A stretch of DNA of 64,000 bases from Bacteroidales bacterium (lineage in GTDB: Bacteria; Bacteroidota; Bacteroidia; Bacteroidales; GCA-2748055), in NCBI GenBank assembly GCA_029210725.1, contig JARGFM010000001.1, forward strand, positions 209,530 to 273,529. Direction: 5' to 3'. The notes beneath the pieces were generated by a model. That model saw only the letters and a program-made list of their open reading frames with translations. It was not told where the DNA came from and searched no databases. Position numbers and translations under genes: made by a program. Of the stretch, positions 1,950-54,191 are shown piece by piece. Numbering within the stretch: the first letter of the stretch is position 1; each line of letters opens with the position of its first letter.

Positions 1950-2060
1950 TATTTACATTTCATATTTGTCAACATTTTCAAACTTTTGTTTTTTGGCAGG
2001 GGTGCTGAAAAAAGCGTTAAATTCGTGCCTGTCAAAATACTAAAGGAGGCCGGATACCTT

Positions 2061-5105: not shown

Positions 5106-6060
5106 GAAACGAAGCGAAATTGTACAGCTCGCTCTTTCGCTCTTTTGGTCTGTTCAGCTTGTCCAGGGAGGCCAGGGCCTCCTGATAATATAAGCGGATT
5201 CGCTTTTCTGTCAGCTCCTTGATACTTAAAGCATCGAAGATTGAAATCACTGCCGAAATCTTCTCCTCCCTGTCAAACTGCATCCCTGTGAGCCATTCGA
5301 TCAGCTCCTCTTTCTGTGAAGCTGAAGCAAGCTCGAGTGCCTGAATAACCAGAAAGGTTTTTTTGTTATCCACGATATCCGTTCCCGGATTCTTACCCAC
5401 TAAGGCGGGATCCCCGTATGTGTCGAGCAGGTCGTCCTGGAGTTGAAAAGCGATTCCCAGGTTTCTTCCATATTCATACAAATCTTCCGAATCTCTCTGG
5501 GAAGATCCTCCCAGAATGGCCCCGATCTTCAGACTGGCAGCAATCAATACCGCCGTCTTTAACTCAATCATGGTCAGGTACTCTTCCTCTGACACTCGTA
5601 TAAGTTCTTCGAAATTCATGTCCATCTGCTGTCCCTCACATACTTGCATGGCCGTATGGGTGAATACCTCCTGGACCGTACTCAGGACAGCGCCAGGAGC
5701 CTGATTCATCAACCGGCTGGCCAGAATGGACATCACATCGCCCGAGAGAATGGCCACATTTTCATTGTATTTGATATGCACCGTTGGATGACCTCTTCTT
5801 TTTTCTGAACGATCCATAATATCATCATGCAGCAGGGTGAAATTATGAAATACCTCAATGGCCACAGCCGGAATCAGTGCAGAAGCCACCTCTCCTGAAA
5901 ACAGGTCACAGGCCAGGATCACCAGGGCCGGCCTTATTCTCTTCCCTCCCAGGGAGAGAATATACCTGACAGGCTCGTATAATTCGGGAGGGGTATCCGG
6001 AATGTTTAGATTCTGAATATGTTTCTCTACCAGATTCTGCGCTTCAAGAAGTGTATACAT
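5086..6060 (-). CDS. Trans-polyprenyl diphosphate synthase (FPP/GGPP type)
   Basis: A 324-residue all-alpha isoprenyl diphosphate synthase, making linear prenyl diphosphates from IPP and an allylic primer. Both aspartate-rich motifs are present: DDIMD at residues 79-83 followed by RRG, and DDLLD at 209-213. GGKRIRP (38-44) supplies the IPP-binding basic residues. The residue five places before the first motif is Phe74; a bulky aromatic at this position usually limits the product to C15-C20, so a short-chain product (FPP or GGPP) is more likely than a long quinone tail. That product length is inference. It converges with the DUF2723 gene and overlaps it by 20 bases; it diverges from the TlpA-like gene. 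Confidence 0.88.
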   Translation of the reverse strand: MYTLLEAQNLVEKHIQNLNIPDTPPELYEPVRYILSLGGKRIRPALVILACDLFSGEVASALIPAVAIEVFHNFTLLHDDIMDRSEKRRGHPTVHIKYNENVAILSGDVMSILASRLMNQAPGAVLSTVQEVFTHTAMQVCEGQQMDMNFEELIRVSEEEYLTMIELKTAVLIAASLKIGAILGGSSQRDSEDLYEYGRNLGIAFQLQDDLLDTYGDPALVGKNPGTDIVDNKKTFLVIQALELASASQKEELIEWLTGMQFDREEKISAVISIFDALSIKELTEKRIRLYYQEALASLDKLNRPKERKSELYNFASFLMNRNR

Positions 6061-6133
6061 AGTTGAGACAAGTTAATGATTTTCGCCATAGAGTGGCAGG
6101 ATGATTATACAATATGTTTTAAAATAGAATCAT

Positions 6134-6141
6134 TAACTTTG
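6134..6141 (+). promoter_or_regulatory. Candidate -7 element for the TlpA-like/carA operon
   Basis: TAACTTTG matches TAnnTTTG exactly and ends 25 bases before ATG 6166, giving a leader near 18 bases. A TGTTTT stretch at 6115-6120 could serve as the -33 region. Confidence 0.55.
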
Positions 6142-6165
6142 TCCGGTTCTTAAAAGCAGTGTTTG

Positions 6166-7644
6166 ATGACATTTTCAAGGAGAATTACAAGCATACTTTC
6201 CATTTTATTTCTTTCTGTTTCATCCCTCTGGGCACAAGGCTACCGGATTGAGGTTGAATTAAAAGGACTTTCAAACGATACCATCATCTTAGGCGAGTAT
6301 TTCACTTCCAGGATGATCCCGAAAGACACCACCGTCGTGGATAAGGATGGCCGGGGTGTTTTTGCCGGAACCGAAGCTTTTAAGGGAGGGCTCTACCTGG
6401 TCTATATCAATCCGGGGCACTATTTCGACCTCCTGCTGGGAGACGATCAGGAATTGCACATTGAAGCAGATACTTCCGATCTCCCGGGTAGTATTACTTT
6501 CCGCGGCTCGGATGATAACCGCATATTCCAGGAGTATAAAAACTTCCTGCAGAAAAAAAGAGGGGAGCTGGAGCAACTGGCAGCCCGGGAAAGCAGCAAC
6601 ACCAATGCTGCAGATAGTATCGCTCTGGTCCTCCGGCAGCAAGAGATCAACCGGGAGATGGAAGCGTTTATGAACCGCATCGAAGCGGAACACTCCACGT
6701 TGTTTGTTTCTGACTTTATTGGTGCCACCAGGGAACCCTTTCCTCCCGAAGAGATGCTGAGCGGAGAGAAAAGACATGACGACTCTGTCCGCTATTTCTA
6801 TTACCGCGAACACTACTTCGACCGTTTTGATCCCTTTAATATCAGACTTTTGCACACCCCCCTCTACGAGGGGAAGATTATGAACTACATAAACAGGAGT
6901 GTCTCCCAACATCCCGATTCCCTGATTGTGGCAGTGGATTACCTGCTGGAAGGTTCCAAAAAGCAGGAAGAGCTCTACCGGTACATGCTGATCACCCTGT
7001 TTAATCATTTTGCCGAAAGCAAATTCATCGGAATGGACGGGGTCTATTTCCACATCGCAGAAAAATACTATCTGCCGGATGCCACCTGGAGCAACCCGGA
7101 GTTTCTGGCCAAACTCAAAGAGAACCTGGAAAGCAATAAACCCACCCTGATCGGCCAGACTGCCCCCAACATCATTCTGCGGCAGATCCCCGAAGAACAC
7201 TTTGGGATGGCAACCCAGGATACTGCCATTAAGAAAGATCCTCATATCGGGCATGATTTTTATATTCATGATGTTGATGCCCGCTTTACCCTTCTGTATT
7301 TCTGGGAAGCAGACTGTGGCCATTGTAAGAAAGCAACTCCAGAGCTGCACGAAGTCTACAGCAGGATGTTGGATAAGGGAGTGGAAGTTGTCAGTGTTCA
7401 CGTGATTAACTCCATAGAGGGTAAAGAAAAGTGGATCGATTTTATAAACGAACACCAGCTGCTGGGATGGATCAATTGCTGGAGCCCCTACAGCAATGAG
7501 TTTAGAAAAATATATAACCTGCAGAGCTATCCGCAGCTTTTTGTACTCGACCGGGACAAGAAAATTGTTGCCAAACGGGTCACCCCCCAGCAGGCCGAAC
7601 AGATCATTAACACGCTGATAGAAAACGAATCGACCGATAATTGA
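6166..7644 (+). CDS. TlpA-like thioredoxin-fold protein, exported
   Basis: A 492-residue exported protein. The N-terminus has an arginine pair and a hydrophobic signal segment ending near LWAQ. The first part is a beta-rich segment like the DUF4369 domain of Bacteroidota TlpA proteins (VELKGLSNDTIILGEYF); the middle is helical and resembles DUF5106-type regions; the C-terminal 130 residues are a thioredoxin fold with the redox motif CGHC at residues 384-387 within FWEADCGHCKKATPEL, and a cis-proline-like SYPQLFVLD near the end. It likely acts as a periplasmic thiol-disulfide reductase; the partner is unknown. ATG 6166 is chosen; a TTG directly before it (6163) is less likely. carA follows after 7 bases, so the two are probably co-transcribed although their functions do not obviously connect. 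Confidence 0.82.
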   Translation: MTFSRRITSILSILFLSVSSLWAQGYRIEVELKGLSNDTIILGEYFTSRMIPKDTTVVDKDGRGVFAGTEAFKGGLYLVYINPGHYFDLLLGDDQELHIEADTSDLPGSITFRGSDDNRIFQEYKNFLQKKRGELEQLAARESSNTNAADSIALVLRQQEINREMEAFMNRIEAEHSTLFVSDFIGATREPFPPEEMLSGEKRHDDSVRYFYYREHYFDRFDPFNIRLLHTPLYEGKIMNYINRSVSQHPDSLIVAVDYLLEGSKKQEELYRYMLITLFNHFAESKFIGMDGVYFHIAEKYYLPDATWSNPEFLAKLKENLESNKPTLIGQTAPNIILRQIPEEHFGMATQDTAIKKDPHIGHDFYIHDVDARFTLLYFWEADCGHCKKATPELHEVYSRMLDKGVEVVSVHVINSIEGKEKWIDFINEHQLLGWINCWSPYSNEFRKIYNLQSYPQLFVLDRDKKIVAKRVTPQQAEQIINTLIENESTDN

Positions 7645-7651
7645 TAAGCTT

Positions 7652-8734
7652 ATGAAGTTCAAGGCAATTAAACTGATTCTGGAGGACGGATCCACTTTTC
7701 ATGGTAAATCATTTGGCTATGAAGGCAGCATTGCCGGTGAGGTGGTCTTCAATACTGCCATGACCGGATATCCCGAAAGTCTGACCGATCCATCCTACAA
7801 AGGTCAGATCCTGGTCCTTACCTATCCCATTGTGGGAAACTACGGGGTTCCCAGAGAGGACTCTGAGAATGATCTCTATAAATTCTTTGAATCGGATCAG
7901 CTTCACATTTCCGCCCTGGTGATTTCCTACTACTCCACCGAGTATTCTCACTGGAACGCAGAGCGCAGTCTCGGCGACTGGCTGAAACAGCACAATATAC
8001 CGGGCATATTTGATGTGGATACCCGTAAAATCACCAAATTGCTGCGGGAAAAGGGATCCATGCTTGGCAAGATAGTTTTCAATGAGGATGAGCCGCCCGC
8101 TTACGATCCCAACCAGGACAACCTGGTCGCACAGGTAAGTGTGGAAGAAAAAAAGGTCTATGGCCAGGGAAAATACAGGATCCTGCTGCTCGATTGTGGA
8201 GTGAAATATAATATTATCCGCTACCTGCTTGAACGCGACACGACCATCATCAGGGTACCCTGGGACCATGATATCAGCAAAGAGGAATACGATGGTCTCT
8301 TTATTTCCAATGGACCGGGTGATCCCAAACAAAACAGGGTCACCATTGAAAGCCTGGCTGCAGCATACCAATCAGAAACTCCGATTTTCGGAATCTGCCT
8401 GGGGAATCAGCTTATGGCGCTGGCCGCCGGTGCAGATACCTATAAACTGAAATACGGGCACCGGAGCCACAATCAGCCGGTGCTTGAAGTGGGAACCGAT
8501 AAAGCCTACATCACCTCCCAGAATCATGGTTATGCCATTGATAACCTGACTCTGCCTGATGATTGGAAGCCTCTCTTCATAAACCTGAATGATGAAACCA
8601 ACGAGGGAATGAAACATGTTTCCAAACCTTTTTTCTCCACGCAGTTCCATCCCGAAGCCTCAGGAGGCCCCACCGATACAGCCTACCTTTTCGATGTTTT
8701 TATTGACCACATCAGGAAGCATGTGGAGGGCTGA
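7652..8734 (+). CDS. carA: Carbamoyl-phosphate synthase small subunit
   Basis: A 360-residue glutamine amidotransferase subunit that hydrolyses glutamine and channels ammonia to CarB for carbamoyl phosphate, used for arginine and pyrimidines. The N-terminal CPSase small-chain domain is clear (GEVVFNTAMTGYPESLTDPSY), and the class I glutamine amidotransferase domain holds the nucleophile Cys249 in GICLGNQ, with His333 and Glu335 in FHPEASGGP. The length is normal for the family. It sits on the plus strand 8 kb before carB, with the whole arginine/proline operon between them on the other strand. Its stop lies 14 bases from the end of convergent proA, and no hairpin terminator is visible there. 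Confidence 0.96.
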   Translation: MKFKAIKLILEDGSTFHGKSFGYEGSIAGEVVFNTAMTGYPESLTDPSYKGQILVLTYPIVGNYGVPREDSENDLYKFFESDQLHISALVISYYSTEYSHWNAERSLGDWLKQHNIPGIFDVDTRKITKLLREKGSMLGKIVFNEDEPPAYDPNQDNLVAQVSVEEKKVYGQGKYRILLLDCGVKYNIIRYLLERDTTIIRVPWDHDISKEEYDGLFISNGPGDPKQNRVTIESLAAAYQSETPIFGICLGNQLMALAAGADTYKLKYGHRSHNQPVLEVGTDKAYITSQNHGYAIDNLTLPDDWKPLFINLNDETNEGMKHVSKPFFSTQFHPEASGGPTDTAYLFDVFIDHIRKHVEG

Positions 8735-33074: not shown

Positions 33075-33149
33075 GGGGTGTTAGCTCAGTTGGTTCAGAG
33101 CGCATGCTTGACAGGCATGAGGTCACTGGTTCGATTCCAGTACATCCCA
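33075..33149 (+). tRNA. tRNA-Val (anticodon GAC)
   Basis: A complete 75-base cloverleaf. The acceptor stem pairs GGGGTGT (33075-33081) with ACATCCC (33142-33148) with one G-T pair; the D stem is GCTC/GAGC; the anticodon stem CATGC/GCATG encloses TTGACAG with anticodon GAC at 33110-33112, reading valine codons; the T arm is ACTGG-TTCGATT-CCAGT. The discriminator is A33149 and CCA is not encoded. It has its own promoter and terminator. Confidence 0.95.
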
Positions 33150-40601: not shown

Positions 40602-42383
40602 CTAATACCTTACACGTTTTGTATAATGGGTATGTAGGAGTTCGTGGGATTTGTGTCCCAGTGGTTCTCCCAGAAATTCCCGGTATATTCCAATAATCTC
40701 CGGATTCTCATGAGATTTTCGGATCTCCATGGACATATCCTCGGCATAAATGGCCTCGGTCCGCTTTCTTCGAATCTCTTCATTGGTCGGAATGGGTTGT
40801 CCGCCACCTCCCAGGCATCCGTCGGGACAGGCCATCACCTCAATAAAATGGGCCTCGATATCCCCGCTCTTCACACCATTCATCAGTTTTCTGGCATTCA
40901 CAAGCCCGTGAGCCACCGCACACTTCAGCTCCACTCCATTCAGAAAGCTCCACTCCTCTTTGCAATCTTCAATCATAACCGAGGCCTGCCTGACCCCTTC
41001 CATACCACGTACGGGGGTGATATTCAAACCTTCAAAGGGAACTTCTCTTCCGGTTACAATCTCATAGGCCGTTCTCAGAGCGGCTTCCATCACACCACCT
41101 GTGGCTCCGAATATGACGGCTGCTCCGCTCGAAACACCCATGATACTGTCGTATTTGTCTTCTTTTAATTTGTTGAAATCCACACCGGCCTGCTTGATCA
41201 TTCTGGCCAGTTCCCTGGTCGTTAAAACATAGTCGACATCCTTGAAACCGCTGGATCGCATTTCGGGGCGATCAGCTTCATATTTCTTGGCTGTACACGG
41301 CATAATAGAAACACTAACCACATCTTTTGGATCGAGTTTCCTGACCTGGGCATAATAAGTTTTGGCCAGGGCACCGAACATCTGCTGGGGTGATTTGCAG
41401 GTAGAAACATTGGGAAGATACTCCGGGAAGGTATGTTCGATAAATTTGACCCAGCCCGGTGAACAGGAAGTGGTCATGGGAAGGGCCACCTCCGGATCCT
41501 TATCAACCAGGGCCTTCTTCAGCCTGGTCAACAGCTCAGTTCCCTCTTCCATGATGGTCAGGTCCGCGGTAAAATCGGTATCCAGCACCGAATCAAATCC
41601 AAGTCTTTTCAATGCTGAAACCATCTGACCTGTCACCCTGCTACCGGCTTCCAGTCCCAGCTCTTCACCCAGACCAACCCTGACAGCCGGCGCTGTCTGA
41701 ACCACCACATGTTTGGTGGGATCCAGAATAACATCCCAGACTTCATCCAGATAGGTACGCTCCACCAGGGCACCGGTTGGACAACGGTTGATACACTGAC
41801 CGCAATTGGTACAAATGACTTCTGCCATGGAGAGGTCCTCAAAGGTGGTGATCCGCTGATGATCCCCCTTAAAGGCCACAGTAAGTGCATTTACACCCTG
41901 CAGTTGTTCACAGGTGCGAACGCAACGCTGACAACGGATGCATTTGCTGTCGTCTTTTTGAATGGAAGGTGAGAAGCGGTCAATAGTATAATCTTTGATC
42001 GTATTAAGATCGATAAAGATGTGATCGCCCACGGCAAATTCATTCGAAAGATTCTGCAGCTCACACATTCCATTCTTATAGCATTTCGTACAATCGGCAT
42101 TGTGTTCCGAAAGCAGCAACTCAATAATGTGTTTCCGGGCCGAGCGAACCTTCAGAGAATTCGTCAGGATCTGCATCCCTTCGGAAACCGGAGAGGCACA
42201 TGCCGCCACCAGCGATTTTGCACCCAGCTGTTCCACCACACAAACCCGGCAATTTCCCGCAACACAGAGATCGTCGTGATGACAGAGAGTAGGTATCCTG
42301 AAATTCATTTTTTTGGCCGCATCAAGAATGGTGGTTCCTTCCGGAACTTTTACGAGCATGCCATTAATAGATAAATTAACCAT
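40602..42383 (-). CDS. hndD: [FeFe] hydrogenase catalytic subunit, HndD/HydA type
   Basis: A 593-residue iron-sulfur hydrogenase. In order: a 2Fe-2S domain (CHHDDLCVAGNCRVC), a His-ligated 4Fe-4S site (HNADCTKCYKNGMC), two 4Fe-4S clusters (CIRCQRCVRTC, CTNCGQCINRCP), then the H-cluster domain with L1 TSCSPGW (305-311), L2 MPCTAKKYE (from 361) and L3 with MACPDGCLGGGG (from 517). The usual second cysteine of L1, the proton relay, is Ser308; the L1 signature allows Cys or Ser. With the two flanking subunits it forms an NAD(P)-linked, possibly electron-bifurcating hydrogenase in the cytoplasm. HydEFG maturases are not in the window. Confidence 0.93.
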   Translation of the reverse strand: MVNLSINGMLVKVPEGTTILDAAKKMNFRIPTLCHHDDLCVAGNCRVCVVEQLGAKSLVAACASPVSEGMQILTNSLKVRSARKHIIELLLSEHNADCTKCYKNGMCELQNLSNEFAVGDHIFIDLNTIKDYTIDRFSPSIQKDDSKCIRCQRCVRTCEQLQGVNALTVAFKGDHQRITTFEDLSMAEVICTNCGQCINRCPTGALVERTYLDEVWDVILDPTKHVVVQTAPAVRVGLGEELGLEAGSRVTGQMVSALKRLGFDSVLDTDFTADLTIMEEGTELLTRLKKALVDKDPEVALPMTTSCSPGWVKFIEHTFPEYLPNVSTCKSPQQMFGALAKTYYAQVRKLDPKDVVSVSIMPCTAKKYEADRPEMRSSGFKDVDYVLTTRELARMIKQAGVDFNKLKEDKYDSIMGVSSGAAVIFGATGGVMEAALRTAYEIVTGREVPFEGLNITPVRGMEGVRQASVMIEDCKEEWSFLNGVELKCAVAHGLVNARKLMNGVKSGDIEAHFIEVMACPDGCLGGGGQPIPTNEEIRRKRTEAIYAEDMSMEIRKSHENPEIIGIYREFLGEPLGHKSHELLHTHYTKRVRY

Positions 42384-42409
42384 GATATCTGTTTTATCTG
42401 TTTTCCTAA

Positions 42410-43570
42410 TTAGTAAATAATCTCTTCCTTAAAATTCTCCACAATGGATCCAAAGGCATTTCCCACCGACTGACCCAATCCGCACTTGGAGGCACGTTTC
42501 ATGGTTTTCGCCAGTTTAACCAGTTCGTCCAGATACTTGGAGTTCTTCTCACCCCGCTTCACCGCCTCGACTCCCTTCAGCAACTGCTGGCAACCCACAC
42601 GACAGGGGGTACATTGACCGCAGGACTCTTCGGTGAAGAAATCCAGATAATTGTGAAGCACATTATACATGGAACGCGTAGAATTAAACAGCTTCATGGA
42701 TCCCCCGGTGGGGACTCCTTCGAATCCAATAATGGTCTCTTCAAACTTCTTCCGGGGAACACAAAATCCGGAGGCCCCCCCCACCTGGACTGCCTTGGTG
42801 TCGCCATCACCGAAATCATTGACAAACTCGTCCACAGTCATTCCGAGCTCCAGTTCATAGATGCCCGCTTTGGGAGTATCGCCCGATATGGAGAACACTT
42901 TTGAACCCCTGGAATCTTTAGTTCCCAGCTCCTTGAAATGACTGGCCCCGTATTTCATGATCATCACACTGTGCACCAGCGTTTCCACATTGTTAATGAC
43001 GGTGGGTTTTCCAAAAAGTCCGGATTTGGTCGGATAGGGAGGCTTGTTCCGGGGTTCTCCCCTTTTACCTTCGATGGATTCAAACAGGGCACTCTCCTCG
43101 CCACAAATATAGGCACCACTGCCCAGTCGTATCTGGATTCTGAAGTTTTGGTTAAATTCATCCATGGTCTGATGGAATTTTTTTAACTCCTCATTCAATT
43201 TGGGGATTAAAAATTTATACTCACCCCGCAGATAGACATATCCCATCTTGGCCCCTATGGCCTTCCCGGCGATGGCCATTCCGCAAAACACCTTTCCGGG
43301 TACCAGGTCAAGAATTTCACGATCCTTGAAAGTTCCGGGCTCACCTTCATCAGCATTACAGACTATGTATTTAACAGGATCCTTTTCACTGGCGGTAAAG
43401 CACCATTTTAACCCGGTGGGGAATCCTGCGCCGCCGCGGCCTTTCAGGTCAGATTCAAGTAACTCCTGGCAGATGGCATCGGGTTCCATATCCACGATTT
43501 TTTTCAGGACATCCCTGCATTCAATCTTTTCAAAAATAAGATCTACTCTTTTTACATGCTGTGAACTCAT
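42410..43570 (-). CDS. hndC: NuoF-like flavoprotein subunit of the hydrogenase
   Basis: A 386-residue subunit related to NuoF/HndC. The NAD and FMN region includes LKGRGGAGFPTGLKW, NADEGEPGTFKDR, and GSGAYICGEESALFESIEGKRGEPR; the C-terminal cluster site is ESCGQCTPCRVG with a later Cys in KCGLG. It lacks the N-terminal 2Fe-2S and C-terminal ferredoxin extensions of longer HndC/HydB proteins. It reduces or oxidises NAD(P)H for the complex. It is 26 bases upstream of hndD. Confidence 0.92.
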   Translation of the reverse strand: MSSQHVKRVDLIFEKIECRDVLKKIVDMEPDAICQELLESDLKGRGGAGFPTGLKWCFTASEKDPVKYIVCNADEGEPGTFKDREILDLVPGKVFCGMAIAGKAIGAKMGYVYLRGEYKFLIPKLNEELKKFHQTMDEFNQNFRIQIRLGSGAYICGEESALFESIEGKRGEPRNKPPYPTKSGLFGKPTVINNVETLVHSVMIMKYGASHFKELGTKDSRGSKVFSISGDTPKAGIYELELGMTVDEFVNDFGDGDTKAVQVGGASGFCVPRKKFEETIIGFEGVPTGGSMKLFNSTRSMYNVLHNYLDFFTEESCGQCTPCRVGCQQLLKGVEAVKRGEKNSKYLDELVKLAKTMKRASKCGLGQSVGNAFGSIVENFKEEIIY

Positions 43571-43590
43571 GTTAATAGTATTTTTCGTAA

Positions 43591-44061
43591 TTATTTTTTA
43601 ATATATTCCCTTAATATTTCCGTTACTTTTCTGGGTGTAAGTTCCGTATAGGGCGTATCATTGATCAGCATAGCAGGCGCTTTATGACACCAGCCAATGC
43701 AGTTGGCCTCCAGTAAACTGAACTTCCGGTCGGGAGTGGTTTCTCCCATCTTCACCTTAAGAATCTCCTCAATGGTGGAAAGGATGTCGTTTTTGCCTTT
43801 CATGGCACAGGAAATGGTTTTACAGATCCTGATCACATATTTGCCCCTGACCTCGGTATCCAGGAAGGAGTAAAAAGTGGCGGTTCCGAATACATCAGCA
43901 GCTGAAATATCAAGTTCTCTGGCCACATCCACCATGTCCTGCCTGGAGAGAAAGCGGTTATGAACCACCAGGTCCTGCAGAATGGGTATCAGGCTTTCAC
44001 GGGTCCTGCCATGCTTATTGGCCAGCTCCCTAACTAATTCATTTTCAATAATCGTCTCCAT
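43591..44061 (-). CDS. hndA: NuoE-like 2Fe-2S subunit of the hydrogenase
   Basis: A 156-residue thioredoxin-like ferredoxin subunit. Cluster ligands are in ICKTISCAMKG and ANCIGWCHKAP; the N-terminal helical part (LIPILQDLVVHNRFLSRQDMVDVARELDI, FGTATFYSFL) is family-typical. First gene of the hydrogenase operon, 20 bases before hndC. Confidence 0.92.
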   Translation of the reverse strand: METIIENELVRELANKHGRTRESLIPILQDLVVHNRFLSRQDMVDVARELDISAADVFGTATFYSFLDTEVRGKYVIRICKTISCAMKGKNDILSTIEEILKVKMGETTPDRKFSLLEANCIGWCHKAPAMLINDTPYTELTPRKVTEILREYIKK

Positions 44062-44394: not shown

Positions 44395-44775
44395 ATGAAC
44401 ACACTCACCAAGGCAGAAGAACAGATTATGCAGATCCTCTGGGACGAAAAAGAGGGTTTTGTAAAGGACCTGCTGCAAAAATTCCCGGATCCCCGGCCAG
44501 CCTATAATACCGTGTCTACCATCATCAGAATCCTTGAAAAAAAGGGCTTCGTTGCTCATCGCAGCTTTGGTAAATCCCACCAGTACTATCCCCTTGTCAG
44601 CCGGGAAAAATACCGGAATGAACGCTTTTCCGGCCTGATGAAGGACTACTTCAACAACTCCATGAAACAGGTGCTCTCCCACTTTGGTTCCAACGGATCC
44701 CTGAGTATGAAGGAGGCCGATGAAATTATACATATGATGGAAGAGCTAAAACAAAAAAACGGGACCTATGAATAA
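44395..44775 (+). CDS. BlaI/MecI/CopY-family transcriptional repressor
   Basis: A 126-residue winged-helix repressor. TKAEEQIMQILWDEKEGFVKDLLQKF and YNTVSTIIRILEKKGFVAHRSFGKSHQYYPLVS are the BlaI DNA-binding domain, followed by a dimerisation helix pair. It overlaps the M56 peptidase gene by 8 bases. Control is likely through cleavage triggered by that membrane peptidase, with the two dyads upstream as operator. No beta-lactamase is near. Confidence 0.92.
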   Translation: MNTLTKAEEQIMQILWDEKEGFVKDLLQKFPDPRPAYNTVSTIIRILEKKGFVAHRSFGKSHQYYPLVSREKYRNERFSGLMKDYFNNSMKQVLSHFGSNGSLSMKEADEIIHMMEELKQKNGTYE

Positions 44776-46081
44776 CTTGTTTGCCTACCTGGTGGAGCTT
44801 AATATCTCCCTGATGATCCTTTTTGTGGCCTACAAACTGTTCTTCGAGAAGGATAAAAACTTTACGGTCAGGCGGATTTATCTTCTTGGAGTGCTAACCC
44901 TGCCCGTGATTCTTCCATTTATACCCGACTCCATAAGAATGCCGGTGGCCCGGATGGCACCCATCTCCATTTCACTGGAAGAAGTTACCGTTCTTGGGTC
45001 AGCTTCAGCAACAGGGGGAGACAGCTCCATATCTTTCACCGGTCTGTTCCTGTTGATCTATCTCTTCATTCTGGCCCTGGGAATTCTTAAAGTATTCATT
45101 CAGCTTACGCGTATTGGCCATATTATACTACGTGCGAAAAGATTCACCCTGAACGGGACCCCCCTGCTTGCAAGCAAAGCCCTGCATGCAAGTTCTTTCT
45201 TTGGCTATATCTTTATCGATCCTGCCTGTGCAAGCGAGCATTCGATCTCTCACATCCTGGAGCACGAAAATATTCATAAACGGGAATGGCACTCTGTGGA
45301 CCGTATTCTCCTGGAAATCTTTGTTATAGTCAACTGGTTTAATCCGGTAGCCTGGATGTTCCGGAGATCAGTCATTGAAAACCTGGAATACCTGGCCGAC
45401 TCAGCAGTCCTGCGCAAAGGCACCGACCCAACTAAATACCAGTTATCCATATTAAACCAATATATAGGAAGCGCTTCTATTTCAAATCAATTTAGTAGTC
45501 AAATTAAAAACCGAATCAACATGCTAAACAAGAATTATAAACTGGGAAGCAGATGGAAACTTGTTCTGCTGCTCCCGCTAACCGTTATTGCCTTCCTTGT
45601 CGTATCCTGTACAGATAAAGATGCGCCCATCCAGGCCATCGAACCGGCGGAAGAAATATCCGCAGATATGCCAGAGGAAGAAGTCTTTTATGTGGTCGAG
45701 GAAATGCCAACATTCAACGGCGAGGAGGCCATCGAATTCCGAAGGTATATCGCCCAGAACCTCATCTATCCCCCTGAAGCTGCCGAACAGGGAGCAACAG
45801 GAAAAATCTTGATTAATTTCATTGTAACAAAAGAAGGAAAGGTGGAGGTTCCTGACCAGGAAACTATGGCCAAGATAGAAGGTAAAGAGCTTGGCGAAGT
45901 AGTCGTGACAGCTTATTCCAGCTATGAAGGTCAAGATGAGCCGGAAGAACAATATATACAGATGCTAAAGGACGAAGTAAAGCGGGTTGTACTCTCTTCC
46001 CCCGACTGGGTACCAGGTAAACAGAGAGGGAAAGCGGTAGATGTATTATTTACCTTTCCTGTTAATTTCGTTTTACAATAA
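44768..46081 (+). CDS. BlaR1-like M56 membrane peptidase fused to a TonB C-terminal domain
   Basis: A 437-residue protein. Residues 1-280 hold four membrane helices and the M56 peptidase site H166-E-N-I-H170, followed by EYLADSAVL, as in BlaR1. A fourth helix (LVLLLPLTVIAFLVVSC) leads to a periplasmic tail ending in a TonB C-terminal fold: EMPTFNGEEAIEFRRYIAQNLIYPPEA...GKILINF, and GKQRGKAVDVLFTFPVNFVLQ. Between these halves is an insert of about 35 residues containing GKELGEVVVTAY, like the plug start of SusC-type receptors. It probably senses an envelope signal and cleaves or inactivates the BlaI-like repressor; the TonB part may touch an outer-membrane receptor. Confidence 0.88.
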   Translation: MNNLFAYLVELNISLMILFVAYKLFFEKDKNFTVRRIYLLGVLTLPVILPFIPDSIRMPVARMAPISISLEEVTVLGSASATGGDSSISFTGLFLLIYLFILALGILKVFIQLTRIGHIILRAKRFTLNGTPLLASKALHASSFFGYIFIDPACASEHSISHILEHENIHKREWHSVDRILLEIFVIVNWFNPVAWMFRRSVIENLEYLADSAVLRKGTDPTKYQLSILNQYIGSASISNQFSSQIKNRINMLNKNYKLGSRWKLVLLLPLTVIAFLVVSCTDKDAPIQAIEPAEEISADMPEEEVFYVVEEMPTFNGEEAIEFRRYIAQNLIYPPEAAEQGATGKILINFIVTKEGKVEVPDQETMAKIEGKELGEVVVTAYSSYEGQDEPEEQYIQMLKDEVKRVVLSSPDWVPGKQRGKAVDVLFTFPVNFVLQ

Positions 46082-47499: not shown

Positions 47500-47976
47500 A
47501 TGGAAACATCCATTGTTCAATTAATCCAGGGAATGCTGGCCCCGGGACTGATGATTTCGGCTTGTGGCCTTCTTCTGCTAGGCATGAACAACAAGTACAG
47601 CCTGGTTGTAAACCGGATCAGGCTGCTCAATGAGGAGAAGCGGAAAATTTTTCATCAGGAGCTGATTGATGACAATGACAGCAACCGCTTAAATAATATT
47701 GAGCTCCAGATCAGCCATCTCATTGAACGTATCTGGCTGGTTCGAAACGCTGTTTTCAGCTATTCACTGGCAGTGGCCCTTTTTATTGTTAGCTCTGTAT
47801 TGATTGGCCTTACCATTAAGAAAAACACCCCTTCGTTTGACTGGTTGATTATTGCCTTTTTTTACGCCGGTATGTTCGCTGTTTTTGTGGGAATCATTTT
47901 CGCTGCCATTGAGGTCTGGAAAGGATACCGTATCGTGAAAATTGAGATTTCCGAGGTCTATAAACCCATCAATTAA
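47500..47976 (+). CDS. DUF2721 membrane protein
   Basis: A 158-residue protein with three hydrophobic helices, the first at LIQGMLAPGLMISACGLLLLGM, followed by the charged NRIRLLNEEKRKIFHQEL and two C-terminal helices. The layout and the NKYSLVVNRIRLLNEE segment fit DUF2721, a family without known function. ATG 47500 is chosen over TTG 47476. Confidence 0.78.
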   Translation: METSIVQLIQGMLAPGLMISACGLLLLGMNNKYSLVVNRIRLLNEEKRKIFHQELIDDNDSNRLNNIELQISHLIERIWLVRNAVFSYSLAVALFIVSSVLIGLTIKKNTPSFDWLIIAFFYAGMFAVFVGIIFAAIEVWKGYRIVKIEISEVYKPIN

Positions 47977-48046
47977 GGATTGCCGGACCACCCGCTTTGT
48001 GCACTTAACTGATGGTTCCGCATGGAGTTTATTCCATAAAAAGCCT

Positions 48047-48054
48047 TATTTTTG
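48047..48054 (+). promoter_or_regulatory. Candidate -7 element for the START-like/receptor operon
   Basis: TATTTTTG matches TAnnTTTG. It lies 8 bases before ATG 48062 and 17 before ATG 48071, so transcription would start at or very near the first ATG; this favours ATG 48071 or a leaderless message. Confidence 0.5.
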
Positions 48055-48061
48055 GTTAAGC

Positions 48062-48451
48062 ATGCCTATCATGAAAGAACTTCGCAAATATTATCGTATC
48101 AAAGGAAGCCCCGAAGAGATTTATGCCGCCCTCACCAATCCTTTTGCCATCAGCCTGTGGACCGGAAGCAAGGCTGAAATGTCAGAAGAACCGGGTTCTG
48201 ACTTTTCGCTCTTCGAAGGTGATATTGAAGGAGTCAATATCGCTTTTGAGAAGGACAGCAAGATCGTACAGGAATGGTTTTTCGGCGATCAGGAGGAGAA
48301 ATCCATCGTGACCATTACCCTTCGTCCAGACCGGCATTATACCAGAATCGAACTGCACCATATCCATATCCCCGATGAAGCATATGAAGATATGGTCCTT
48401 GGCTGGGACATATACTATTTTGGCGGACTGAAGGATTTTTTTGAAAAGTAA
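48062..48451 (+). CDS. START-like/AHSA1-type domain protein
   Basis: A 129-residue SRPBCC-fold protein: YRIKGSPEEIYAALTNPFAISLWTG at the start, the middle strands DFSLFEGDIEGVNIAFEKDSKIVQEWFF, and a final long helix DMVLGWDIYYFGGLKDFFEK. This is the START-like domain common in Bacteroidota as a stand-alone protein of unknown ligand. ATG 48071 could be the true start. It lies 5 bases before the giant receptor gene, so they are likely co-transcribed. Confidence 0.8.
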   Translation: MPIMKELRKYYRIKGSPEEIYAALTNPFAISLWTGSKAEMSEEPGSDFSLFEGDIEGVNIAFEKDSKIVQEWFFGDQEEKSIVTITLRPDRHYTRIELHHIHIPDEAYEDMVLGWDIYYFGGLKDFFEK

Positions 48452-48456
48452 TCAGC

Positions 48457-51400
48457 ATGTTTCTGAAAAGATATTTTCTGGTTCTTCTCATTTTCCTGCT
48501 TCCAATCGCACTTACAGGCAGGAGTCTGGATGAGATCAAAAGAAGTGGAAAAATCTTTGTGGCTTTTACCGAAACAGATCTGAAGAACATCAATTACGAC
48601 CTTGCCCGGGAGCTTGCCCGTTATCTCAATGTGGAGCTGATCGAGGTCCCCATAGAATGGGATCAGGTCTTCATGCGTAACGGCACCATTCCCCCCGGCC
48701 TGGAAACCGATCCCGAACTCCGGTACACTCCGGATGCTCTTAAAAAAGCCGATATCATCTGCTCTACTTTTACGATCATGGAGTGGCGAAAAAAACTGTT
48801 CGGTTTTGCCGAAACCATGCTTTCGGCCGAACTCCTGATGATCCACAAGAATGAGGAAACTCCCGGGAGTTTTGAAGATCTTTCCAATAAACGGATTGCT
48901 TACACGGGAAGTACCACCTTTGAACAGCACCTTAAAGAGATTAATGCAACACTGGGGGAGCAGATGCAACTGGTCAGGACGCGATCCAGTGAGGAAACGA
49001 AGCGTTTGCTGGAAGAGGGCCGTGTTTATGGAATTGTATTGGACGCCGATGAGGCCCTGAATTTTAATGCAAATAGTGAGCAGAGATATAAAATAGCATA
49101 TCCCATCAGTGATATTACCCGGACTGCATGGGCCGTGGAAAAAAACAATCCGCTTATCCAGGAGGTGGAGAATTTCTTTGAGACCATTGCCAGCAATGGG
49201 GTCCTGGATGAACTCTTCTACAAGCGTTTTGGAATCACCTATAATTCCTATGTGGACCGGCTCAGCAAGAACCTGAAGACAGAGCGGTATCACCGGAGCC
49301 TGGACGAAATCCTTGCCTCCCGGAAACTGGTTGTGGCCCTCCGGGACCGGGACTTTGTCTACCATGAAAACGGACAGAAGCAATTTATGCATGCCCTGGC
49401 GGAGGAATTTGCCGACTACCTGGGAGTTTCGCTCGAATTTGTGGTGACTCCCAACTTCGAAAAGTACTGGGAAAATGAAGAAGGGGAAGTAATACGGGAC
49501 TCCGCCTACACCCCGGAGTGGTTTTATTATTTTGATCTCGCCTGTGAGACCATTGCACCACTCGCCTGGAGGGCCAACAAGGTGAATATGATCCCCGTCT
49601 ATCGGAGTGCATACACGGTGGTGGCCAGAAAAGAAGCGGAGATTGAGACCCTGGACGATCTGAATAATTTCCGTGGGGTAACGGGTAGCGAAACGGTTTA
49701 TGAAGATATCCTGAAAAAAAACGGAATCACCAACTACTATTGTGAGAATATCAACAACTTCATTCCAGATGTGCTTTCGGGAAAAGCCGACTATACCATT
49801 ATCTATAATGCATTCAGCGAATTGTCGGCATACCCCGGCCTGGAAGCAAAACTGGAACTGGGTAGTGTGGATATCTGCTGGGCACTGCGGAAGGACCAGC
49901 CGGAACTCCAGAAAGAGCTCGAAAAATTCATCCACAGATCACAGCAACAGGGTTTGATAGGAATACTGGTCAAGGCACTCCGGGGAAATACATTGCAGGC
50001 GCCTGAGGCTTTTATTAACAGCTATTATGAGAGTTTCCAGACCGGACAGTTACCCTATGTGAATTACGGCGCCGACGACGGGCTCCCACAGGAAGATATC
50101 TTCTCCATCTTTCAGGATCAAAAAGGTTATATGTGGTTTGGTACAAATTCAGGGGCCGTCAGGTATAATGGCAGGGAGATGATGGTATTTAACCATGAAC
50201 ATGGACTGCCCGGAAATTCGGTCCGGGATATTGAGCAGGACAGCAGCGGGACCATGTATTTTGCAACCACCAATGGAATTGCAAAATTTTACGGCGACTC
50301 AACTACTCATATCCTGTGGGAAGGTATCTCATTTCACCACATTTTTATAGATTCCAGAGATCAACGATGGTTTCTGGGAGATGATGGAATCTACCTGGAA
50401 GATCCTGAAGGAAATACCAGATATTTAAATGCCGAACACCCGGTATTGCCGGGGATTATTTACAGCATCACCGAAGACCCGGATACGAAAAATCTGCTTT
50501 TCGCCACCATCAAAGGGATTTTTATGTTTGATCCTTCCATGGAGCAGGTTTCACAACTGAGTGATACAGATTGTTTTTCGATTTATGTGGATATCAACGA
50601 CAGTATCTGGATATCGACCAAAAACGGACTTACCGTGACTCATCTTCCCGGCCTGATAGAGGACCGGCGCAATACGACCTTTTATAACCTGAATGACAGG
50701 CTGCAATTCCCTGTTCACATCATCTCAGATATTAGCAGCAATAAATTTGGCTCCATCTGGCTGGTTAGCGACTCCAGGATCATGCAGGTCATTTCCACCG
50801 ATCAGAAACCAATTATATACGAGCAGGAATTCGGAATAAAGAACAATAAGATTCTTTCTTTCCTGAGCGATCAGGAAGATAATCTCTGGATCGGCTTTTC
50901 GGGAGGGTTACAGCGTCTCACAAACCGAAAGGGTTTACGCAATTTTTTCCCGGGATCGATCAATAGTTATATCTATTCCGTTTTCCAGGATAAGGAACAG
51001 AGAATCTGGATCACCTCAGACAATGGCGCCTTTTACTTCCAGGATTCAAAACTGGTAAATTTTACCCCCAGGATTGGAACTGAGTATACCAAATTTACGG
51101 GAACCCTCCTGCCCAATCAAAACATTCTGCTTGCCAATACGAAGGGCTTATATGAGGTAAGCAGCACCAACCTGGAGGTCATCAGGCACAAACCCTTCAC
51201 TCAAATTACACATAGTGTGGAGAACATTTTTGTAAGCTCCAGGGGTGAAATATTCCTGCTCACGGGCATTAATGGTATTATCTACTATTTCACGGACTTC
51301 TATGCCCGGCCAAAGGAGTTAAAGAATAAGTATACGGCAAATATTTTTCAACTTATTGAGATGAACGGCCAGGTGGTGGGCGGCAATAATTCGGGCTTTG

Positions 51401-53100
51401 TTGCCTTCAGGGAAGAGGGGTTTGAATTTTTGCAGGAGACCGACTGTGGTATCTGGTCTCTTTACCAGGAGGGAGAAAACCTTTGGGTGGGTACAGATTG
51501 TGGAATCGGCCTGGTAAAAAACAGCCGATTCGAACAAATGGAACTGAGCACCTTTGATAGGGAAATGATGATCAAATCCATTCTGCCCGCCAAAAACAGG
51601 TCCTATCTCTGGCTGGGCACCAACAAAGGATTCAGTTACTTTAATACTGAGAAACTGGAGTTTGAATTTACGATCAATACCAAAGATGGGTTGAGCGGAG
51701 ACGAAATTACACCCGGTGGCCTTTTTATGGACAGCAATGATCTGCTTTGGGTGGGCACTTACCACGGCATCTCTAATTTTAATATCAAGGCGAAATCTAC
51801 CAAAAACTATACCCCGGTCTGCTATATCGAAAAAATCTATTTAAACGGGGACCGGATTGAGGCAGAATCGGGAAGGGCCTTTTCGCATAATGAAAACAAT
51901 TTCATATTTGAAATAAGCGCGCTCTCATTCACAGATGAAGCCTCTGTGGAATATGAATACTACCTGAGGGGAACCGGTAATGAATACTCGTCTTACCACA
52001 GGGGCAATGAATACAAAGCCGTTTATAACAACCTTCCTCCCGGCAAGTACGAATTCATTTATAAAGCAAAAGGGAAAAACAATATCTGGGGGTACACCGA
52101 AAAATTTGATTTTACTATCCGTAAAGCCTGGTATAATACCTGGGTATTCCGCATCCTGACTATTCTATTATTTATTTCAGGTACTTACTTGTTCTGTTTT
52201 CTAAGGATCAGAGCTATAAAATCCCAAAAAGACCGCCTGGAACAACAGGTCAGGGAGCGAACCCATGAGTTGGAGCTGGCCAATACGGAGATCGAGGCCC
52301 AGCGCGACTTTGCAAGATACCAGCGGGATCAGATTGCCCAGCAGCAGAAAGCAATTATGAGCAGCATTCAGTATGCGCAACGTATTCAGAATTCTTTGCT
52401 CCCCTCCGCGCATCTGCTTAAAACAAAACTTCCCGGGCACTTTATCCTGTTTAAACCCCGTGATATTGTCAGTGGGGATTTTTACTGGTTCAGCGAACAC
52501 AAGAACCACTACTATATTTCTGCAGCCGACTGCACGGGCCACGGGATTCCCGGAGCTTTTATGAGTATGTTAGGTATGGCTCTGATGAACGAGATCGTCC
52601 ATAAGTACCCGGATATTGATCCCGACAGCCTGCTCAATGAGCTGAGAAACCAGATTATTGAAACAATGCACCAGAAAGGAGATCCCAGTGCTGCCAAGGA
52701 TGGAATGGATATGGTGATCTGCAAGATTGACAAACATAAAAGCAGAATGCTTTTTGCCGGAGCCAACAACTCCCTCTATCATGTAAGAAATGGCCAGCTT
52801 ACCGAGTACAAGACCGACAAAATGCCTGTTAGCTATCATTTAAGCATGCAGCCCTTTACCAGACATGAAATCAATCTGGAACCAGGCGATCTGGTGTATC
52901 TTTTTTCGGATGGTTACGCAGACCAGTTCGGCGGACACAACGGGAAGAAATTCAAATACCTGCAGCTCAGAAATTTACTGGCCTCTGTCTCCCAAAAAGA
53001 GATGCCTGAGCAGGGACTACAGCTTGACCGGGAATTTGAACAGTGGAAAGGTGATTTGGATCAGATTGACGATGTGGTACTCATTGGCCTGAAATTCTGA
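48457..53100 (+). CDS. Giant receptor: two solute-binding domains, propeller, Y_Y_Y and SpoIIE/PP2C phosphatase
   Basis: A 1547-residue membrane receptor. After a signal peptide come two family 3 solute-binding (Venus flytrap) domains, about residues 25-262 (LDEIKRSGKIFVAF) and 284-525 (SLDEILASRKLVVAL). Residues 540-1105 hold about 14 Reg_prop blades (DIFSIFQDQKGYMWFGT, ILSFLSDQEDNLWIGF, TPGGLFMDSNDLLWVGT), enough for two seven-bladed propellers, then a Y_Y_Y domain (1126-1221), a membrane helix (1223-1250), a coiled coil and a SpoIIE/PP2C phosphatase (1302-1547) with its metal aspartates in SGDFYWF, DCTGHGIPG, FSDGYADQFGG and DDVVLIG. The likely job is ligand sensing outside and dephosphorylation of a regulator inside; ligand and target are unknown. 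Confidence 0.9.
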   Translation: MFLKRYFLVLLIFLLPIALTGRSLDEIKRSGKIFVAFTETDLKNINYDLARELARYLNVELIEVPIEWDQVFMRNGTIPPGLETDPELRYTPDALKKADIICSTFTIMEWRKKLFGFAETMLSAELLMIHKNEETPGSFEDLSNKRIAYTGSTTFEQHLKEINATLGEQMQLVRTRSSEETKRLLEEGRVYGIVLDADEALNFNANSEQRYKIAYPISDITRTAWAVEKNNPLIQEVENFFETIASNGVLDELFYKRFGITYNSYVDRLSKNLKTERYHRSLDEILASRKLVVALRDRDFVYHENGQKQFMHALAEEFADYLGVSLEFVVTPNFEKYWENEEGEVIRDSAYTPEWFYYFDLACETIAPLAWRANKVNMIPVYRSAYTVVARKEAEIETLDDLNNFRGVTGSETVYEDILKKNGITNYYCENINNFIPDVLSGKADYTIIYNAFSELSAYPGLEAKLELGSVDICWALRKDQPELQKELEKFIHRSQQQGLIGILVKALRGNTLQAPEAFINSYYESFQTGQLPYVNYGADDGLPQEDIFSIFQDQKGYMWFGTNSGAVRYNGREMMVFNHEHGLPGNSVRDIEQDSSGTMYFATTNGIAKFYGDSTTHILWEGISFHHIFIDSRDQRWFLGDDGIYLEDPEGNTRYLNAEHPVLPGIIYSITEDPDTKNLLFATIKGIFMFDPSMEQVSQLSDTDCFSIYVDINDSIWISTKNGLTVTHLPGLIEDRRNTTFYNLNDRLQFPVHIISDISSNKFGSIWLVSDSRIMQVISTDQKPIIYEQEFGIKNNKILSFLSDQEDNLWIGFSGGLQRLTNRKGLRNFFPGSINSYIYSVFQDKEQRIWITSDNGAFYFQDSKLVNFTPRIGTEYTKFTGTLLPNQNILLANTKGLYEVSSTNLEVIRHKPFTQITHSVENIFVSSRGEIFLLTGINGIIYYFTDFYARPKELKNKYTANIFQLIEMNGQVVGGNNSGFVAFREEGFEFLQETDCGIWSLYQEGENLWVGTDCGIGLVKNSRFEQMELSTFDREMMIKSILPAKNRSYLWLGTNKGFSYFNTEKLEFEFTINTKDGLSGDEITPGGLFMDSNDLLWVGTYHGISNFNIKAKSTKNYTPVCYIEKIYLNGDRIEAESGRAFSHNENNFIFEISALSFTDEASVEYEYYLRGTGNEYSSYHRGNEYKAVYNNLPPGKYEFIYKAKGKNNIWGYTEKFDFTIRKAWYNTWVFRILTILLFISGTYLFCFLRIRAIKSQKDRLEQQVRERTHELELANTEIEAQRDFARYQRDQIAQQQKAIMSSIQYAQRIQNSLLPSAHLLKTKLPGHFILFKPRDIVSGDFYWFSEHKNHYYISAADCTGHGIPGAFMSMLGMALMNEIVHKYPDIDPDSLLNELRNQIIETMHQKGDPSAAKDGMDMVICKIDKHKSRMLFAGANNSLYHVRNGQLTEYKTDKMPVSYHLSMQPFTRHEINLEPGDLVYLFSDGYADQFGGHNGKKFKYLQLRNLLASVSQKEMPEQGLQLDREFEQWKGDLDQIDDVVLIGLKF

Positions 53101-53165: not shown

Positions 53166-54191
53166 ATGAAGCAGATAATTATATCAGGAATTGCATGGAT
53201 GATCATGTTCCCCCTGCTAGGCCAGGAGATCGATACTGTTCCGGACCTTTCAAAAGATCCTTTGGCAGCTGAAGCTCCTGCCGTAGAGGAAGAACCAGCC
53301 CTGGAGGAAAACGCCGAGGCTCCTCAGGAAGAAAATACGGTCCGTGTAACGGGCAAAGTTAAAGTGATTGAAACCCCCGATAAATCCAGGGCTACTCTGG
53401 GAGAAAATGAAGTGTTTATCGTTGAAGAGAACGGGGATACCATGAAGGTGATCCTGGGTTCGCGTGGTATCAGCATTGTAGAAGGAGAGGAGGGAACAGA
53501 GATCAAAGTCATCGAGATGGATGATCCTCCCCAGAAATCAAATCAAAAGAAGAAAAAAAGATTCAGACCTCACTTTTCCGGACTGGAAGTGGGACTTAAC
53601 AATTTTGTTACTCCAGATTACTCCCTGACGCTGCCCCCGGAGGAAAGATATATGGATGTGAACACCGGGAAATCGTGGAACTGGAATGTAAATATTATCG
53701 ATTATGGATTTGGTCTGGGCACGGATAAAGTGGGTGTTGTATCGGGACTTGGATTCGAATTCATCAATTACAGTTTTGATGGTCAGAACAGCATCCGAAA
53801 GGACCCCGTTACCAGTGAAATCATGGCATATGTGCCGGATTATGCGGGAAACATCAGTAAATCGAAAATGAATATTACTTATCTGACAGCCCCTCTTTTG
53901 CTGGAATTTCAAATACCAGCCCCCCGGAAGAGGATTTATTTTTCAGCCGGTCTTATTGGAGGATTAAAGCTTTGGTCAAATACAAAAATGAAATATACAA
54001 TCAGCGGAGAAAAATCTAAAGAAAAGGTCAAAGGGGATTATAACCTGTCGCCTCTCCGCTGGGGTGTCACGGCGAGAGCCGGTTACAAAGCCCTGGGCTT
54101 CTATGCTACCTATTATATGACACCCCTCTTTGAAGCCGATCTCGGTCCGGAACTCTATCCCTTCAATATCGGACTTGCTTTTTCGTTTTAA
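53166..54191 (+). CDS. PorT-like outer-membrane beta-barrel with acidic linker
   Basis: A 341-residue exported protein. After the signal peptide comes an Ala/Glu/Pro-rich segment (about residues 30-57) and a small beta region (VRVTGKVKVIETPDKSRATLGENEVFIVEENG), then a basic KKKKRF patch and a C-terminal barrel of the Bacteroidota PorT-like/OMP_b-brl type ending YPFNIGLAFSF. It follows the giant receptor by 65 bases on the same strand and may be served by its transcript; a functional link is only suggested. Confidence 0.75.
   Translation: MKQIIISGIAWMIMFPLLGQEIDTVPDLSKDPLAAEAPAVEEEPALEENAEAPQEENTVRVTGKVKVIETPDKSRATLGENEVFIVEENGDTMKVILGSRGISIVEGEEGTEIKVIEMDDPPQKSNQKKKKRFRPHFSGLEVGLNNFVTPDYSLTLPPEERYMDVNTGKSWNWNVNIIDYGFGLGTDKVGVVSGLGFEFINYSFDGQNSIRKDPVTSEIMAYVPDYAGNISKSKMNITYLTAPLLLEFQIPAPRKRIYFSAGLIGGLKLWSNTKMKYTISGEKSKEKVKGDYNLSPLRWGVTARAGYKALGFYATYYMTPLFEADLGPELYPFNIGLAFSF

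Follow-up and report, generated by a model that had tools for sequence, protein, structure and literature searches.

A Bacteroidales receptor family that joins tandem flytraps and a double propeller to a SiaA-type phosphatase domain

Background

To our knowledge, the Sia pathway is known only through the control of cyclic di-GMP (c-di-GMP) and biofilms in Pseudomonas, where the phosphatase SiaA is part of the SiaABCD system of Pseudomonas aeruginosa. Large periplasmic sensors are found in two other groups of described systems, the Bacteroides hybrid two-component systems (BT4663, BT3049 and BT4673), whose periplasmic part is a double propeller with a Y_Y_Y domain, and the sensor kinases BvgS and EvgS, which carry tandem solute-binding (flytrap) domains in the periplasm. 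Receptors with such sensors are usually described as kinases. Here we describe a large membrane receptor of an uncultivated Bacteroidales that ends in a SiaA-type phosphatase and is encoded in a 64,000-nucleotide stretch of DNA (the window; positions 209,530 to 273,529 of contig JARGFM010000001.1, assembly GCA_029210725.1).

The receptor works like SiaA at its output and like BvgS and the hybrid two-component sensors at its input, and is a full member of neither. It resembles SiaA in the PP2C domain and the helix preceding it, and in having SiaB and SiaC partners in its genome, which are adjacent in some receptor relatives; it differs in that only its C-terminal part matches. With the hybrid systems it shares the periplasmic double propeller and Y_Y_Y domain but has two extra flytraps, and with BvgS and EvgS it shares the tandem periplasmic flytraps but continues into the propeller and Y_Y_Y and has a phosphatase, not a histidine kinase, as its output. 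In MltF, a lytic transglycosylase, a solute-binding protein (SBP) domain is followed by an SLT transglycosylase domain, to which the receptor has no Pfam match.

Results

Architecture of the receptor

The receptor frame starts with ATG and contains no internal stops. Its domain order is a signal peptide, two SBP_bac_3 flytraps, a double propeller, a Y_Y_Y head, a membrane helix, a long helix and a SpoIIE/PP2C domain (Table 1). Pfam matched SBP_bac_3 in two stretches (E 4.6e-15), Reg_prop (E 3.5e-29) and SpoIIE (E 1.1e-18); Y_Y_Y scored 25.1 bits (E 1.7e-5), slightly below the cut-off of 26.6, which was exceeded in one of four scanned relatives (L107). No HisKA, HATPase or receiver domain was matched by Pfam in the protein, nor was the histidine kinase, receiver and AraC output of hybrid two-component systems, SpoIIE standing there instead. 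An original prediction for this gene had named this domain order in the 1547-residue protein, with a BvgS-like double flytrap and with SpoIIE replacing the kinase; the profile searches and predicted structures bear it out, the Y_Y_Y match being the one that falls short of its threshold.

An AlphaFold model of residues 23-1215, with a predicted local distance difference test (pLDDT) of 79.9 and a predicted template modelling (pTM) score of 0.49, shows two flytrap folds followed by a double propeller and Y_Y_Y as in the Bacteroides hybrid systems; with pTM only 0.49, the mutual placement of the domains is not defined by the model. The top Foldseek match of this model was 4a2m (BT4663; E 7.6e-38), and for the propeller and head the closest folds were the periplasmic regions of BT4663, BT3049 and BT4673. 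The propellers of the BT4663 class have fourteen blades. The BT4663 match covered 546 residues with a Z of 25.7 and a root-mean-square deviation (rmsd) of 24.3, indicating that the parts are arranged differently from those of BT4663. The flytrap half matched the GlnPQ tandem (6h30, 2.6e-21), BvgS (4q0c, 1.8e-17) and EvgS (9ilw, 2.0e-14), and flytrap 2 matched 3vvd with a Z of 23.6 and an rmsd of 2.4. In the predicted structure of residues 1225-1547 (pLDDT 86.4), one helix (model residues 2-90) runs from the membrane into the phosphatase.

An artefact or chance open reading frame (ORF) was ruled out, as the full colinear protein is kept in 55 of 78 loci found on named contigs, and 153 positions are invariant among the window protein and 23 full-length proteins from whole genomes, two sets that overlap in part. 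The antisense ORF opposite the receptor start (48415-49935) looks like a shadow ORF.

Table 1 Features of the receptor locus, in window coordinates
Feature	Position	Strand	Basis
AHSA1-like ORF upstream of receptor	47942..48451	+	Pfam; stop 5 bases before receptor start
Receptor phosphatase gene	48457..53100	+	Open frame, 1547 aa; full-length relatives
Signal peptide, residues 1-22 (boundary approximate)	48457..48522	+	Hydropathy, hydrophobic N-terminus
Flytrap 1 (SBP_bac_3), residues 23-262	48523..49242	+	Pfam, PDB profile search, fold matches
R111 (flytrap 1)	48787..48789	+	Aligned with the arginine in ITxxR, a motif of amino-acid SBPs; Arg in 56/56
D196 (flytrap 1)	49042..49044	+	Aligned with an Asp of AncQR
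Flytrap 2, residues 279-510	49291..49986	+	Fold matches, tree
Double propeller, residues about 535-1113	50059..51795	+	Pfam Reg_prop, fold matches
Y_Y_Y head, residues 1159-1221	51931..52119	+	Sub-cut-off Pfam score, fold match
Single membrane span, residues about 1229-1250	52141..52206	+	Hydropathy
Signalling helix, continuous with membrane helix, to residue about 1314	52207..52398	+	Predicted structure
SiaA-type PP2C (SpoIIE) domain, residues about 1325-1547	52429..53097	+	Pfam, NCBIfam, PDB sequence and fold matches
Outer-membrane beta-barrel gene (OMP_b-brl_2), downstream	53166..54191	+	Pfam; neighbour in 10/79 loci, window included

The phosphatase domain

The phosphatase domain belongs to the SiaA subtype. 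The NCBIfam SiaA model matched residues 1253-1547 with 203 bits (E 6.9e-60), and a search of PDB sequences (E up to 0.01) returned 6k4e as its sole match (E 1.1e-42), which was also the best fold match (E 3.6e-21, TM 0.89 by target), with RssB as the next family (E 1.5e-11). Titled SiaA-PP2C, 6k4e is described in PMC7647112, and the receptor's PP2C domain and preceding helix are 32% identical to it over 253 columns. Residue conservation was read from an alignment of 56 rows, with the window included and the kinase-type relative L192 left out, in which D1341, D1358, D1418, D1485, D1538 and D1539 are identical throughout, the first four being the metal aspartates that had been expected from the outset. 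As reported in PMC7647112, the SiaA metal site has three conserved aspartates and the carbonyl of C475 (C475, D534, D600 and D604), which by alignment spacing, counted by hand, correspond to C1359, D1418, D1485 and D1489. C1359 is conserved in at least 90% of rows, and D1489 is Asp in 36 and Ser in 20.

SiaB and SiaC partners

Hidden Markov models (HMMs) of SiaC and SiaB were built from the proteins of the window's own genome and run on the 78 named loci, in 15 of which both genes lie near the receptor. In 11 loci SiaC directly precedes the receptor, in the same orientation and 217-471 bp away; two SiaB genes stand before it in 10 of them, and the contig of the other (L158) ends inside SiaB. 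A TPR-SpoIIE gene lies between SiaC and the receptor in L148, L150 and L160, and a 1.7 kb gap in L149; in L154 both DUF6272 and SiaC were confirmed by Pfam. P. aeruginosa SiaC is phosphorylated at T68, in the peptide LLYLNTSSIK, according to PMC7647112, and the equivalent site is Thr in all 18 SiaC domains of the receptor-linked loci.

SiaC was also found in 28 of 28 receptor genomes, with up to 23 matches per genome. In a sample of 119 genomes of the order (taken as G000-G118), 13 of which carry the receptor, SiaC was present in 51, including 38 of the 106 without the receptor, giving a Fisher p of 6e-6 for 28/28 against 38/106, not corrected for kinship. Taken together, the SiaA-like PP2C domain, the adjacent SiaB and SiaC genes in 15 of 78 loci and the presence of SiaC in every receptor genome make dephosphorylation of SiaC, under the control of a ligand, the likely job of the receptor. 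The original prediction had missed the SiaA subtype, and with it the likely substrate and kinase that some relatives encode beside the receptor.

In L154, L156, L164, L169 and others, SiaC is preceded by a tandem of two different SiaB genes, which suggests paired kinases. A 510-aa ORF in L150 (16945-18474, minus strand) holds two SiaB (DUF6272) domains and one SiaC domain, a fusion of kinase and substrate in operon order.

Flytrap residues

Each flytrap has an arginine that is kept in all 56 rows, R111 in flytrap 1 and R372 in flytrap 2, and the ITxxR arginine aligned with R111 presumably holds the ligand carboxylate. We take the aspartate of AncQR aligned with D196 to be the one that amino-acid SBPs use for the ligand amine. 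Position 196 is Asp in 22 rows, the window among them, Val in 31, Thr in 2 and Asn in 1, and is Asp in none of the 10 SiaC-linked loci present in the alignment, a pattern that predicts an amino-acid-like ligand of flytrap 1 within the window's clade, and an altered ligand elsewhere. Over the first 534 residues, 42 positions are invariant in 24 rows with identity down to 36%. In a tree of 18 representatives, the flytrap 1 sequences form one group (100/98) and the flytrap 2 sequences another (100/99), and the two are joined (99/94), consistent with a single ancient duplication that preceded the spread of the family. L192 is the first branch of the flytrap 1 group (95/85); the branching order within flytrap 2 is not resolved.

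Distribution and relatives

Searched with the first 534 residues, the order sample gave a strong match in 28 of 295 genomes, the window's own included (best E 2.8e-67 or better), and weak matches in another 24 (E 4.3e-8 or worse), two of which were scanned (L045, L236) and are MltF-like SBP and SLT proteins. In two partly overlapping samples of 395 genomes each, one of the phylum and one of the class, there was no strong match except in the window's own genome. Of 124 candidate stretches on named contigs, 89 proved to be relatives, and the best 80, making up the 78 loci, were kept. All of these are titled as metagenome-assembled genomes (MAGs) or uncultured; 55 are complete, with ectodomains 38-83% identical to the window's, 20 run off their contig, L183 ends a few bases short of a contig end and L125 is split over two frames. 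The receptor architecture is thus that of a real, conserved family, and a fusion peculiar to the window's genome is ruled out by the strong matches across the order and the named loci. The rarity that had been predicted for the combination does not hold within the order, with strong matches in 28 of 295 genomes, though the phylum and class samples gave no other. We found no description of this architecture among the papers listed from the literature searched, which left subscription papers mostly outside, so that it is apparently undescribed there, as had been suspected.

One of the 78 loci, L192 (2891-7498), encodes a complete protein that aligns with window residues 9-1284 and has SBP_bac_3, Reg_prop and Y_Y_Y followed by HisKA and HATPase_c instead of SpoIIE; judged by its sequence, it is a natural swap of output on the same flytrap-propeller sensor. 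Its MAG is labelled Deltaproteobacteria, and its neighbours, a histidyl-tRNA synthetase and an FG-GAP protein, are not decisive on binning. A second protein of this type was absent from 291 genomes of the L192 order, so mis-binning is possible.

The window's own genome encodes three proteins (L199, L203 and L204) that share the propeller, Y_Y_Y and SpoIIE phosphatase with the receptor and have no SBP_bac_3 match. L204 aligns with receptor residues 514-1547 at 28% and L199 from residue 1136 at 38%, and the receptor looks like such a flytrap-free protein with a BvgS-like head added. SBP_bac_3 has two matches in this genome, one a 515-aa ORF of MltF size and the other presumably the receptor.

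Output without c-di-GMP and a candidate effector

Unlike the genome of SiaA, 26 of the 28 receptor genomes have no match to a GGDEF domain; with completeness of at least 90% and contamination of no more than 5% required, this holds for 20 of 22. The SiaC effector in these genomes therefore cannot be a SiaD-type cyclase, and the c-di-GMP output of Pseudomonas cannot apply. In the window's own genome, SiaB/SiaC pairs adjoin a protein with ABC_tran and ABC2_membrane domains at L200, L207 and L212, and SiaC (L213) or SiaB (L214) adjoins a MacB/FtsX permease. We surveyed 87 SiaC loci, namely 7 from the own genome (one chosen for SiaB) and 80 picked by hand from the SiaC matches listed for the order sample, which were mostly top-ranked, with repeats of one locus skipped, and are hence biased to strong SiaC scores. 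SiaC was called in 82 of the 87. A cluster of roughly 1030-aa ABC_tran and ABC2_membrane proteins (Pfam was run on two members) occurs in 41 loci, with L266 also an example, and in 40 of the 41 it stands directly after SiaC, whichever its orientation. An ABC protein match at E < 1e-20 was present in 48 of the 87 loci; as a control, unmatched for distance or threshold, the 78 receptor loci (1.10 Mb) gave three weaker ABC matches at E < 1e-5 (39-69 bits), one of them below 1e-20. No ABC match lies beside SiaC in the 15 receptor-linked SiaC loci, L149 having one about 8.5 kb away, so the linkage tells of SiaC generally and not of the receptor. The ABC transporter adjoining SiaC is a candidate effector on this gene-order evidence, and none of the paper titles listed in the literature search connects SiaC with ABC transporters.

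Two frames are broken at L207, a PAS/GAF-SpoIIE gene (2045-4462) with an in-frame TAA inside the phosphatase match and the ABC protein (5588-8442), which appears as two overlapping ORFs; these reflect either decay or assembly errors.

Genomic neighbourhood

The AHSA1-like ORF and the receptor are probably co-transcribed. In 18 of 79 receptor loci, window included, the gene directly upstream is AHSA1-like, and those of these loci present in the alignment all have D196. Elsewhere in the window, a Penicillinase_R repressor precedes an M56 peptidase that also matches TonB_C (44395-46081), a BlaI/BlaR-like pair, and three ORFs on the minus strand (40602-44061) resemble, by eye only, an electron-bifurcating [FeFe]-hydrogenase set (HydABC-like). 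There were 11 promoter-like sites, where shuffled sequence averaged 14.0, and 15 terminator-like sites, where it averaged 9.7, giving nothing usable, and the sole Rfam match in the window at the gathering threshold was a tRNA at 33075.

Discussion

On balance, we consider it probable that the protein is a periplasmic ligand receptor whose SiaA-type output acts on SiaC-family proteins. Its ligand would be a small carboxylate-bearing molecule, probably an amino acid, a peptide or a muropeptide fragment, bound by one or both flytraps, and their closure would be passed via the propeller and Y_Y_Y to the membrane helix and the signalling helix continuous with it, which would switch the PP2C domain; we infer the direction of the switch as well as its path. 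The PP2C domain would probably be dimeric, by analogy with the SiaA dimer. When active, it would strip phosphate from SiaC-family proteins, opposing SiaB-family kinases, and unphosphorylated SiaC would then bind a putative effector. Ligand-controlled dephosphorylation from the periplasm, as the original prediction had it, is probably right, but it is something that we infer.

Several results weigh against this reading. The match to the SiaA model stays below its equivalog cut-off of 700 bits, only the output half matching, which makes the receptor SiaA-like by output and not a SiaA orthologue. Neither SiaB nor SiaC was found by HMM at the window locus; elsewhere the own genome has 6 SiaC and 4 SiaB, and 3 of the 6 SiaC have Ser instead of Thr at the T68 site. 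With 16 SpoIIE matches (perhaps 15 genes) beside these 6 SiaC, the pairing of phosphatase and SiaC is ambiguous, and SiaC as the substrate in the window's own genome is a presumption. The linked loci cluster within the family, to judge from the lack of D196 in all 10 that were aligned, and their linkage may go back to one or a few events. At position 450 of flytrap 2, Asp is not conserved, occurring in only 5 of 56 rows.

A different ligand, with a different origin of the sensor, is possible but doubtful: the receptor may sense cell-wall fragments with flytraps derived from the regulatory domain of MltF. MltF is the top NCBIfam model for the flytraps, at 76 bits, the best amino-acid ABC model reaching 39, and MltF structures are among the fold matches of flytrap 2, with 4p11 high among them (Z 23.2) and with 4p0g, titled as a complex with bulgecin and muropeptide. 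Amino-acid SBPs, however, outscore MltF in the PDB profile search, and the tree has three groups, one each of the flytraps, of MltF and of most amino-acid SBPs, which meet at one unrooted point, so that the nearest kin of the flytraps is not resolved by it. The tree being unrooted at the decisive place, we do not conclude that the flytraps certainly came from MltF; two proteins labelled amino-acid SBP (L229 and L240) fall within the MltF group.

Slightly less likely, to our mind, is that the flytraps are structural and bind no solute, leaving the propeller and Y_Y_Y region to sense a polysaccharide or a partner protein, as might be read from the title of the top fold match, BT4663, as a heparin and heparan sulphate sensor, and from the 34 of 56 rows that have no Asp at position 196. 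The invariance of R111 and R372 and the number of invariant positions in the first 534 residues, seemingly more than a scaffold needs, argue against it. That the phosphatase instead acts on a STAS anti-sigma-factor antagonist (RsbV/SpoIIAA type) and thereby releases a sigma factor, in the manner of RsbU and SpoIIE, is improbable, for while its Pfam family is SpoIIE and RssB, SpoIIE and RsbX are among its fold matches, SiaA is by far the top match in sequence and fold and the linked genes are SiaB and SiaC.

Extending the preferred reading of a ligand receptor acting on SiaC, we offer as speculation a Sia switch of the Bacteroidales that is free of c-di-GMP, in which many receptors, this one through its two flytraps, would converge on SiaC proteins. 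SiaC would in turn govern ABC-2 type exporters through a direct switch of partners; nutrients or wall fragments outside the cell might thereby gate a transporter via dephosphorylation, and the sensor half of the receptor would be exchangeable between kinase and phosphatase.

Conclusions

The presence of the Sia pathway in genomes with no detected GGDEF raises the question of the role of SiaC there. The receptor belongs to a conserved sensor-phosphatase family in which the genes for substrate and kinase are adjacent in some relatives, which makes ligand-controlled dephosphorylation directly testable. It probably answers its signal by removing phosphate from a switch protein and not, as the usual sensor kinases do, by adding it.
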